DNA of 9,106 nt. Origin: Nitrospinae bacterium RIFCSPLOWO2_12_FULL_45_22. GTDB taxonomy: Bacteria; 2-12-FULL-45-22. The position numbers and the translations under genes were made by a program. The first letter of the stretch is position 1. Each line of letters begins with the position of its first letter. Positions 683-4,218 of the stretch are shown one piece after another. Location: contig MHDQ01000030.1 of NCBI GenBank assembly GCA_001803565.1, positions 1 through 9,106 on the forward strand, written 5' to 3'. The notes under the pieces are model-generated. The model did no database searches. It was not told where the DNA came from and worked only from the letters and a program-made list of their open reading frames with translations.

Positions 683-857
683 AGAAACAACTTAGGAAAT
701 GATTTCAAAAGTATATCAACCAGCCAGATAGAACAAGTAAGCTTTTACACAAAATAAGAAGAAGTAATCAACGAATTGGGAAAAGACATCCAACAAAAAA
801 GGGAAACGTGATTAAAATTAGTAGAAAATAATCTCGTCCCCTACGTCCCCATTTCCC
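683..857. other. A+T-rich gap without a supported gene
   Basis: The 175 bases between the small charged protein and the SECIS hairpin are A+T-rich. Short open stretches exist (for example a 17-codon run ending at a TGA near 811), but none has a start codon with a ribosome binding site. No clear terminator with a U-tract is visible. It could be decayed coding sequence, but I cannot assign it. Confidence 0.5.
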
Positions 858-892
858 CTAAAACCCGAGCCACCGGCCCGGGCAGATTTTAG
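858..892 (-). promoter_or_regulatory. Candidate bacterial SECIS element
   Basis: Read on the minus strand, a hairpin follows the UGA at 898-900. The lower stem is CUAAAA/UUUUAG (887-892 with 858-863). A one-sided bulge UCUG (883-886) follows, then an 8-bp upper stem CCCGGGCC/GGCUCGGG with one G-U pair, and a GGU apical loop (872-874). The loop begins 23 nt after the UGA. A short stem-loop immediately 3' of the UGA, with G at the start of the apical loop, is what bacterial SECIS elements look like. The true UAA stop lies within the lower stem. No U-run follows the hairpin, so an intrinsic terminator is a poor alternative explanation. Confidence 0.75.
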
Positions 893-1107
893 ACCGTTCA
901 GTAGCCATTGAAACCCACGGTTACCTTATCATCCATGAGAATGACCGGTACTTTCTTACCGCCCGAGACCTTGACCATCTCTGGTAGGCGATCCCGGTCG
1001 TTGGTAACATTTATCTCCTCAAATTCGATCCCTTTAGCCTTCAAATCCTGCAGGGCCGCGGCACAATAAGGGCACCCGGTCTTAGTATAAATAGTTGCTT
1101 GAGCCAT
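889..1107 (-). CDS. Glutaredoxin-like selenoprotein, Uxx-star type (72 aa, in-frame UGA = Sec)
   Basis: This is a thioredoxin-fold redox protein of glutaredoxin size, with CPYC at residues 12-15 and the cis-Pro motif KKVP (Pro54), so it should carry out thiol-disulfide chemistry in the cytoplasm. Translation to the first stop gives 69 aa ending GFNGY. Reading through that UGA adds Sec70-Thr-Val and then UAA, that is U-x-x-stop, the C-terminal signature of the glutaredoxin-like 'Uxx-star' (seleno)proteins. A SECIS-like hairpin follows the UGA. The start is ATG at 1107, with AGGAGG 5 nt upstream; an earlier in-frame start would add 13 unrelated residues without a ribosome binding site. The gene lies 129 bp downstream of the aldehyde dehydrogenase on the same strand and may be cotranscribed. 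The partner of Sec70 (perhaps the CPYC pair) is inferred. Selenocysteine genes selA-D are not in the window. Confidence 0.8.
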
Positions 1108-1112
1108 CCCTT

Positions 1113-1118
1113 CCTCCT
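1113..1118 (-). promoter_or_regulatory. Shine-Dalgarno of the selenoprotein gene
   Basis: On the minus strand AGGAGG (within AAGGAGGA) sits 5 nt upstream of the ATG at 1107. This fixes the start at MAQATIY and removes the longer N-terminus. Confidence 0.8.
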
Positions 1119-1236: not shown

Positions 1237-2712
1237 TCAATCAATGTCAATCTGGGCCCGTTGTAGTCTCCCACTATAATCTATATAAACACTCTTCCAC
1301 TCAGTAAAGGCTTCCAGGGCAGCATTACCGGCCTCACGGTGACCATTACCCGTACCCCGCGTACCTCCGAAAGGGAGGTGTACTTCGGAGCCAATAGTAC
1401 CAGCATTGATATATACCAGGCCAGTACTAATATTATTTATGGCCTTTAATGCCTTATTGACATCCTGGGTATAAATAGATGATGAGAGGCCATAAGGGGT
1501 ATTATTATTTACTTCTATGGCCTCTTCTAAATCCTTTACCGTAATAAGGACTGTGGTAGGGCCAAATATCTCTTCCTGGGCAATCCTCATACCTGGCTTT
1601 ACTAGGGCAAATACTGTAGGTGTGTAAAAGAACCCTCTGGCGCATTCCCCCTCAGTATAGCGCTTTCCACCGGTTAATAGGATGGCCCTTTCTTTCAGGC
1701 CAATCTCGGTATAGTTATGGATGCGCTGGAGCTGGGGCTCATTAATTACTGGCCCGATGTCAGTAGTCTCCAGCAGACCATTGCCCAGCCGGAATTTTTT
1801 AACCCTTTCAACCAAGCTCCTGGTCAGGTCTTCCTGAATACCTTGCTGCACAATGACTCGGCTAGCAGCCGTGCAGCGCTGTCCTGAAGTACCAAAGGCA
1901 CTCCAGAGGATACCCTCTAGGGCCAGCTCCAAGGCGGCATCGTCCAGCACTATTATAGCATTCTTACCACCCATTTCCAGAGACAGGCGCTTACCACGCT
2001 CAGCGGCCTTGATAGCGATCTCGCGGCCTACTTCGTTAGACCCGGTAAAAGATATCATAGCTACCTTAGGATGTTCTACCAGGGCCGCTCCTACCTCTCC
2101 CGGGCCTAAGACCAGGTTAAGGACGCCGGGTGGTAAGCCGGCCTCTTCCAATATTTGTACCAGTAGCACCCCCATAATCGGGGTATCTTCTGCCGGTTTA
2201 AATACCACTGTATTGCCAGCAACCAGGGCAGGCATGATCTTCCAGGCCGGGATAGCCAGGGGAAAATTCCAGGGTGTTATGGCGGCTACCACACCGATAG
2301 GGTCCCTTACCTGCATAGCAAATTTATTGGGCAGCTCAGAAGGGGTAGTGTAACCAAACAGACGGCGTCCTTCACCAGCCATATAATAAGCCATATCTAT
2401 AGCCTCTTGCACATCCCCCCGGGCCTCTTTCAGCACCTTGCCCATCTCTCGGGTAAGCATGATAGCCAGCTCCTCTTTACGCCTCTGCAAAATATCTCCT
2501 GCCCGGAAGAGGGTCTCGGCCCGCCGGGGTGCCGGTACCTGTCTCCACCTGGAGAAGGCCCTGGTAGCTGCTTCTACGGCAGAGTCTATCTCGTTGGGGC
2601 CAGCATAAGAAACTCTCCCCAGGACTTCACCATTGGCCGGATTTAGGCTCTCAAAGACCTTCCCTGATGCGGACTCAACCCATTTACCATCTATATAGTT
2701 CCTATATAACAT
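1237..2712 (-). CDS. NAD(P)-dependent aldehyde dehydrogenase, 491 aa
   Basis: Oxidises an aldehyde to the carboxylate with NAD(P)+, in the cytoplasm. All hallmarks of the ALDH superfamily are present: PWNFP at 147-151 with the oxyanion Asn149, FKPAE at 171-175 (Glu175 suits NAD+ rather than NADP+), FTGS at 222-225, the general base Glu246 in LEMGGK, the nucleophile Cys280 in GQRCTAA, and EEIFGP near 380-385. Length is normal. The C-terminal part (HLPFGG, TGNGHREAG, EWKSVYIDYSGRLQRAQID) resembles the semialdehyde dehydrogenase branch (aminoadipate, succinate or ketoglutarate semialdehyde types). I would not fix a substrate. The start is ATG 2712, with AGGAGG 8 nt upstream; the next upstream ATG is only 2 nt from that site. 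It is divergent from the MaoC-like genes and probably cotranscribed with the selenoprotein. Confidence 0.93.
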   Translation of the reverse strand: MLYRNYIDGKWVESASGKVFESLNPANGEVLGRVSYAGPNEIDSAVEAATRAFSRWRQVPAPRRAETLFRAGDILQRRKEELAIMLTREMGKVLKEARGDVQEAIDMAYYMAGEGRRLFGYTTPSELPNKFAMQVRDPIGVVAAITPWNFPLAIPAWKIMPALVAGNTVVFKPAEDTPIMGVLLVQILEEAGLPPGVLNLVLGPGEVGAALVEHPKVAMISFTGSNEVGREIAIKAAERGKRLSLEMGGKNAIIVLDDAALELALEGILWSAFGTSGQRCTAASRVIVQQGIQEDLTRSLVERVKKFRLGNGLLETTDIGPVINEPQLQRIHNYTEIGLKERAILLTGGKRYTEGECARGFFYTPTVFALVKPGMRIAQEEIFGPTTVLITVKDLEEAIEVNNNTPYGLSSSIYTQDVNKALKAINNISTGLVYINAGTIGSEVHLPFGGTRGTGNGHREAGNAALEAFTEWKSVYIDYSGRLQRAQIDID

Positions 2713-2720
2713 GACCATAT

Positions 2721-2726
2721 CCTCCT
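2721..2726 (-). promoter_or_regulatory. Shine-Dalgarno of the aldehyde dehydrogenase
   Basis: AGGAGG on the minus strand, 8 nt from the ATG at 2712. It excludes the ATG 2 nt away and the upstream TTG at 2742 as starts. Confidence 0.8.
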
Positions 2727-2756
2727 TACGTGCCTGGAGCAACTCGATGATGCCCC

Positions 2757-2941: not shown

Positions 2942-3083
2942 AGGGAAATCCTAATATAGCTTATTGACCGGGGCTTTTTTACTTGCTGCCTGCATAGGGT
3001 CTAGACTCATCCTCTATATCAGAAAGGGAATCTCAGGCTGGGCAGGAGGAATTTTTGAAAAAATAATAAGGGGAGGTGGTAAC

Positions 3084-3530
3084 ATGAATTTGTATTTTGA
3101 AGATTTTGAGGTAGGAGAGAAGTTCTCTACTCCAGGAAGGAGCATTTTTAATACTGATATAGTTAATTTTGTGGGCCTTACCGGTATGTATGAGGATCTC
3201 TTCTGTAATCTGGAATATATCGAAAAGGCCAGTGCCTTTAAAAAGCGGATAGTACCTGGGGCCTTGACCCTTTCGGTCTCTGTCGGCTTGTTTAGCCGAA
3301 CCGGCTGGTTCGACAAGACTGGCCTGGCCCTCACAGGTTTCCGGAAGATAAATTTCATCAATCCTCTAGTCCCAGGCGATACCATCAGGAACGAATGTGA
3401 GGTGATAGGTAAGCAGGAATCAGAGAGAAGAGATGGGGGCATTCTTACCCTGCAAGTTATAGTCAAGAACCAGCGGGATGAAGATATTGTCTCGTATCAG
3501 ACCCTGGGTTTAATGGCAAAAAGGGGTTAA
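3084..3530 (+). CDS. MaoC-like hot-dog protein lacking the usual catalytic pair, 148 aa
   Basis: This is a single hot-dog domain of the MaoC/(R)-enoyl-CoA hydratase family. The N-terminus (YFEDFEVGEKF), TDIVNFVGLTG at 24-34, KRIVPGALT at 54-62 and PGDT at 97-100 follow the family order. Active members carry a G-D-x-N-P-x-H motif after the helix start. Here the same stretch reads GMYEDLF, placing Met35 at the catalytic Asp and Phe40 at the catalytic His. Hydratase activity is therefore doubtful. It may bind an acyl-thioester, act as a structural subunit, or do different chemistry. The start is ATG 3084, with GGAGG 7 nt upstream; the frame is open further upstream but without family similarity. 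The second paralogue follows 217 bp downstream on the same strand and may be its partner in a heterodimer. Confidence 0.82.
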   Translation: MNLYFEDFEVGEKFSTPGRSIFNTDIVNFVGLTGMYEDLFCNLEYIEKASAFKKRIVPGALTLSVSVGLFSRTGWFDKTGLALTGFRKINFINPLVPGDTIRNECEVIGKQESERRDGGILTLQVIVKNQRDEDIVSYQTLGLMAKRG

Positions 3531-3532
3531 GA

Positions 3533-3597
3533 AAGGTTCAAAGTTCAACGTTCTATATAAAGCCAACCTTGAACCTTGAACGTTGTACATTGAACTT
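3533..3597. repeat. TTCAA-type inverted repeat after the first MaoC-like gene
   Basis: Blocks of GTTCAA/TTGAAC text: AAGGTTCAA (3533-3541) with TTGAACCTT (3569-3577), and CAACGTTC (3546-3553) with GAACGTTG (3578-3585). The two pairings cross, so the fold would have to choose between them, or AAGTTCAA (3541-3548) pairs with the GAACTT end at 3592-3597. It begins 2 bp after the stop codon. It could work as a transcript 3' structure or be a decayed small element. Confidence 0.55.
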
Positions 3598-3605
3598 ATT
3601 AAATT

Positions 3606-3692
3606 AAGGAGAAAGGGAGAAGAAGGGAAAATGGTGAAAGAAGAGCAATAGATATAATTTTTCTCCAGTTCCCTTTCTCCCCTTTTCTCCTT
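3606..3692. repeat. Purine/pyrimidine inverted repeat with about 25-bp arms
   Basis: The left arm 3606-3630 (AAGGAGAAAGGGAG and on) is all purine. The right arm 3669-3692 is its near-exact complement, ending TTTTCTCCTT. The arms differ at only a few positions and enclose about 38 bases. Transcribed, it gives a long hairpin followed by a U/A-rich stretch, which could end or protect the upstream transcript. It lies between the two MaoC-like genes and so could lower expression of the second one. Confidence 0.6.
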
Positions 3693-3747
3693 ATTATTAA
3701 AATGGAAATTCCTATACTATGAACTTATGAAGAGAGGAGGGAGATAA

Positions 3748-4218
3748 ATGCCAAAAGAAGCGCATATGGACCTATATTTTGATGATTTACCCCGGGGGTA
3801 TAAATTTTCTGTCCCAGCGAGAACCATATTTGATGCCGATATCGTAGGTTTTGTGGCCCTCTCAGGACAGACAGAGAGCCTCTTTTTAGATACTGAGTAT
3901 GCTGAGAAAGAGAGCATATTCAAGAAGCGGGTTGCCCCCGGCATGCTCGTCTGGCAGCTTTCTATGATGGGGATGCTCCGGTTAGGGATACTGGAAAAGG
4001 CGGGATTAGCTTTCCTGGGTCTGGATGATGTCAACTTCTTTAAGCCTGTCTGTCCCGGTGATACCATTTATTCCGAGGCAGAAATCGTGGAATGCCGAGA
4101 GACCAGCAAAGGGGATCGGGGTATTATTGCCATGCGGTTTGAGGTTAAAAATCAGCGCGGGGAAAAGGTTATGGAGTATACCCATAGAGAACTACTCCGC
4201 AAACGACCGCAACCATAA
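3748..4218 (+). CDS. Second MaoC-like hot-dog protein lacking the usual catalytic pair, 156 aa
   Basis: A paralogue of the upstream gene and the same fold: DLYFDDLPRGYKF at 8-20, ADIVGFVALSG at 30-40, KRVAPGML at 60-67, PGDT at 103-106 and a C-terminal EVKNQRGEKV strand. The motif that should read G-D-x-N-P-x-H reads GQTESLF, giving Gln41 for Asp and Phe46 for His. Both paralogues have Phe at the His position and share the FKKR-x-x-PG block, so they arose by duplication of an already altered ancestor or are held to a common new role. The start is ATG 3748, with GGAGG 7 nt upstream. It is followed by an inverted repeat and is convergent with the kinase genes. Confidence 0.82.
   Translation: MPKEAHMDLYFDDLPRGYKFSVPARTIFDADIVGFVALSGQTESLFLDTEYAEKESIFKKRVAPGMLVWQLSMMGMLRLGILEKAGLAFLGLDDVNFFKPVCPGDTIYSEAEIVECRETSKGDRGIIAMRFEVKNQRGEKVMEYTHRELLRKRPQP

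Follow-up and report, generated by a model that had tools for sequence, protein, structure and literature searches.

A CPYC-type member of the Uxx-star glutaredoxin-like family with a probable C-terminal selenocysteine

The UXX-star families of selenoproteins are listed in a 2026 review of selenoproteomes (PMC13188914), which cites Haft and Tolstoy (2025, mSystems). As far as this review shows, the Uxx-star family is known without an established function. NCBIfam has dedicated models, among them NF041212 (Uxx-star) and NF041114 (gluta_UXX_star_1), and the characteristic ending has a selenocysteine (Sec) or Cys with exactly two more residues between it and the stop. Two other groups of described proteins come close: bacterial glutaredoxin 3 and NrdH-redoxin, with a CPYC-type centre, and selenoprotein glutaredoxins in which Sec is part of an N-terminal UxxC motif. 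For the bacterial SECIS hairpin (bSECIS), the review gives as criteria an apical loop of 3-9 nt with G in the first two loop positions, an upper stem of 4-16 bp, and a distance of 16-37 nt between the UGA and the loop (PMC13188914).

The window analysed here is the whole stretch of 9,106 nucleotides from Nitrospinae bacterium RIFCSPLOWO2_12_FULL_45_22. Its minus strand carries a glutaredoxin-like gene with a CPYC centre (Table 1), which under the standard code closes at a UGA and yields a product of 69 residues. The preliminary description, made from the sequence alone, had read the end of this gene as GFNGY-UGA-Thr-Val-UAA, and the read-through translation confirms that ending. When the UGA is read as Sec, the product is MAQATIYTKTGCPYC...KVTVGFNGY-U70-T-V-stop, in full MAQATIYTKTGCPYCAAALQDLKAKGIEFEEINVTNDRDRLPEMVKVSGGKKVPVILMDDKVTVGFNGY-U-T-V-stop.

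Table 1. Features of the selenoprotein locus in the window (coordinates refer to the window).
Feature	Position	Strand	Basis or remark
CDS, Uxx-star glutaredoxin-like selenoprotein (very probable)	889..1107	-	72 aa with Sec70, UAA included; NF041212 match
UGA codon, very likely read as Sec70	898..900	-	UGA in the same column in 22 loci, with two codons between it and a stop
True stop UAA	891..889	-	
Shine-Dalgarno sequence GGAGG	1113..1117	-	sequence; 5 nt upstream of the ATG
Cys12-Pro-Tyr-Cys15 redox centre	1063..1074	-	read-through translation and alignment
Putative bacterial SECIS hairpin	857..893	-	folding, family comparison, bSECIS model (PMC13188914)
Hairpin, upper stem	883..863	-	
Hairpin, GGU apical loop	874..872	-	
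Hairpin, 4-nt bulge	887..884	-	
Aldehyde dehydrogenase	1237..2742	-	co-directional, upstream, 129 nt before the selenoprotein gene

The read-through protein scores 101.9 bits against NF041212 (cut-off 66; profile positions 2-70 of 70). It resembles this family over its whole length, including the U-x-x-stop ending, and the comparison brought up no difference that would exclude membership. In a six-frame search of the genome with the same model the window gene is the only member (95 bits). The score against NF041114 is marginal (75.7 bits, barely above the equivalog cut-off of 72). With read-through, the match extends to the final column of both profiles. The GF-x-G-x-U-x-V ending is common to the window protein and NF041114, whereas most of the NF041114 members found here have UPYT, UHYT or CPFT at the first motif, where the window protein has CPYC, and the latter is one residue shorter before the VPV loop. 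The window gene is a further member of an already catalogued family, within which its CPYC centre is a modest variant, and not a new kind of protein. It had been expected that automatic annotation would drop the Sec. This applies to naive gene callers, and standard gene calling would indeed lose the probable active residue. However, as NCBI already has dedicated models for the family, the Sec of Uxx-star proteins is not overlooked in principle.

Homologous loci were collected by profile searches of up to 386 genomes, by two follow-up searches at family level and from retrieved regions. A contig scan with the standard-frame protein returned mostly ordinary glutaredoxins with long C-termini, and the search with the family model was more useful. 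A total of 22 loci, the window included and mostly in distantly related genomes, end in U-x-x-stop with the UGA in the same column. The second residue after the UGA is always hydrophobic (Val in 17 cases, Phe in 3, Ile in 2). This Val is encoded by GTC, GTG, GTT and GTA, and the stop codons are also mixed (9 UAA, 8 UGA, 5 UAG). In our view, translation of the UGA is supported most strongly by this conservation of amino acids with synonymous change beyond it. Homologues that all end at the Gly-Tyr position, which the preliminary description had named as speaking against a selenoprotein, are thus not what the alignment contains. The closest relative (L079) is 58% identical to the window protein, and a relative from the same order (L023) ends GFGGTUSV-stop. 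A clear one-to-one homologue ending in Cys-xx-stop was not found among the loci examined; two of them (L070 and L100) have a Cys near the Sec column, but with longer tails. One protein of similar length (L040, genome G006) has Thr at the Sec column and ends Thr-Asn-Ile-stop, which may represent a loss of Sec.

Alignment A1 shows no variation at the cis-Pro, at conserved glycines or in the Sec70 column, and in the first motif the Cys12 column likewise contains nothing other than Cys or Sec in any of the 16 members aligned. Most members have UPYT at this site and hence two Sec per protein. CPYC occurs in the window protein, L079 and L098, and CPHC in L080 and L099. The window protein and its nearest relatives, in which a C-terminal Sec is paired with CPYC or CPHC instead of the usual UPYT, are in this respect mildly unusual.

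A search for selA, selB, selC and selD, the lack of which had likewise been named as an argument against Sec insertion, found the complete set in the assembly to which the window belongs (3.67 Mb in 321 contigs; completeness 85%, contamination 1.3%). The selB gene (372 bits, cut-off 242) and the adjoining selA gene (588 bits, cut-off 268) are located on contig C264, selD (401 bits, cut-off 125) on contig C19, and the gene for tRNA-Sec (75 bits, gathering score 47; anticodon UCA according to ARAGORN) on contig C247. The selD gene carries one in-frame UGA of its own (...SHGGGUACKL...). Apart from the full selB, there is a second, truncated selB-like fragment with about 180 residues from the GTPase domain (L002, contig C215 of the same genome, 213-752).

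The preliminary description had further reported a bulged hairpin right after the UGA, with a GGU apical loop 23 nt away, and folding gave the same structure: a lower stem, a 4-nt bulge, an upper stem of 9 bp and the 3-nt GGU loop, at -18.8 kcal/mol. The loop sequence, the stem length and the distance from the UGA all fall within the published bSECIS ranges. The Rfam scan of the window reported no match to a SECIS family. Compared to shuffled sequences, the window hairpin has a z-score of about -2, with 9 of 200 shuffles being equally good, and this drops to between -0.4 and -1 when longer flanks are included. Taken singly, the window hairpin is weak evidence.

The family comparison is more informative. 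In each of 20 homologous post-UGA regions, the highest-scoring local stem-loop was taken, and the mean score (9.35) exceeds both the mean (5.87) and the maximum (7.15) of 300 shuffled sets; the shuffles preserve base composition only, and some of the loci are closely related to each other, so that these are not 20 independent observations. Against dinucleotide shuffles, individual family hairpins have a modest mean z-score of -1.67, which is why we base the hairpin on the set and not on single hairpins. The loops are mostly GGU, GGUC, AGGU or AGUU. Stem pairs vary on both sides between loci in a compensatory manner, the loop-adjacent pair being C-G, G-C, A-T or T-A. SelB would use the window hairpin to direct Sec-tRNA to the UGA, two further residues would be added, and translation would stop at the UAA.

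A trivial explanation would be that the UGA is an ordinary stop of a truncated glutaredoxin of 69 residues and that the hairpin acts as a weak terminator of transcription. The flanking A and U tracts (AAAA...UUUU) would fit this, as would the modest significance of the single window hairpin. In this respect the claim that no U-tract suggests a terminator has to be corrected, as the upper stem is followed by a run of four U (GGGUUUUAGGG), paired with the AAAA opposite; the terminator scan, however, reported nothing at the hairpin. A terminator also leaves the conservation beyond the UGA unexplained: all 22 loci have a hydrophobic residue at +2, with synonymous changes in its codon, and a stop codon at +3. 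The Sec machinery of the genome and the SECIS-like hairpin common to distant genomes argue in the same direction. We therefore reject the terminator and regard an ordinary stop as highly improbable. Translation through the UGA is very likely, given the Sec machinery in the genome, the UGA-x-x-stop in the same column of 22 loci and the common downstream hairpin, and Sec would be the residue inserted. We are confident that this gene truly encodes a selenoprotein and that it belongs to the Uxx-star glutaredoxin-like family.

An AlphaFold2 model built with 16 members (mean pLDDT 83.9, pTM 0.68) predicts a glutaredoxin-type topology, E-H-E-H-E-E, which ends after the strand at residues 61-64. Among solved structures, clostridial cGrx2, Archaeoglobus fulgidus Grx-1, Synechocystis GrxA and E. 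coli Grx3 come nearest to it. The window protein has its CPYC-type centre and its fold in common with bacterial glutaredoxin 3 and NrdH-redoxin (TM-score 0.67-0.79 to Grx and NrdH structures) but ends after the fourth strand and has a C-terminal Sec. A classical glutaredoxin has the full fold with a final helix after the last strand, and this helix is missing from the model. The selenoprotein glutaredoxins with UxxC have the same fold; in these the Sec belongs to the N-terminal motif, whereas the window protein has it on the C-terminal tail, where the model has a pLDDT of about 71-75. The product would be a thioredoxin-fold protein that ends just past its last beta strand, where ordinary glutaredoxins enter their final helix.

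The presence of CPYC and a C-terminal Sec in one protein permits the question of what a tail selenol does beside a full dithiol centre. On its short tail, Sec70 may lie near the CPYC centre and act with Cys12 as a redox pair that forms a selenenylsulfide, which would replace the glutathione-based resolution of classical glutaredoxins. We give this pair an even chance. The window protein could also be a selenoprotein in which Sec70 and the CPYC cysteines are ligands for a metal or another soft substrate, a role that we regard as possible, with the odds somewhat against it. That the Sec of UXX-star families may bind a metal or other substrate is raised where the review cites the authors of the family (PMC13188914), and a protein that lacks the final helix and carries its Sec on the C-terminal tail is unlike classical glutaredoxins. 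On the other hand, both CPYC and the glutaredoxin fold typically go with disulfide chemistry, and the neighbours in the window (aldehyde dehydrogenase, MaoC-like proteins, sensor kinases) include no metal genes. Our best guess places a redox role of Sec70, exerted on a presumed substrate, ahead of metal binding.

The closest NCBIfam model for the upstream aldehyde dehydrogenase is alpha-ketoglutaric semialdehyde dehydrogenase, with a score below its cut-off. L079 likewise has an aldehyde dehydrogenase directly upstream. The two enzymes best fit different subfamilies, so that the common neighbour may be due to chance, and we did not accept it as a functional linkage. In L080, L098 and L099, from three genera of one family, different from that of the window genome, the CPYC/CPHC-type Uxx-star gene is located between nuoM and a nuoN-like gene of complex I, in the same direction; the nuoM of L080 was checked against NCBIfam, and the other nuo genes were named by sequence resemblance and position. 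It is conceivable, though we think it unlikely, that the five proteins with CPYC or CPHC plus Sec represent a functional subgroup, in which a dithiol and a C-terminal selenol would form a glutathione-free relay of three residues. Such a subgroup could have particular metabolic partners, aldehyde dehydrogenase for the window and L079, and NADH dehydrogenase subunits M and N for L080, L098 and L099.

Elsewhere in the window, two adjacent and co-directional genes for MaoC-like dehydratase-domain proteins (2964-3530 and 3748-4218, plus strand) appear to be related to each other. Between them is an imperfect inverted repeat (3596-3702) with 34-nt arms that are 76% complementary and 39 nt apart; this repeat attracts spurious matches to eukaryotic miRNAs. 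Near the contig edge, positions 197-267 of the plus strand match the group II catalytic intron family of Rfam (RF00029) above its gathering score, and the remainder of this intron would be off the contig.
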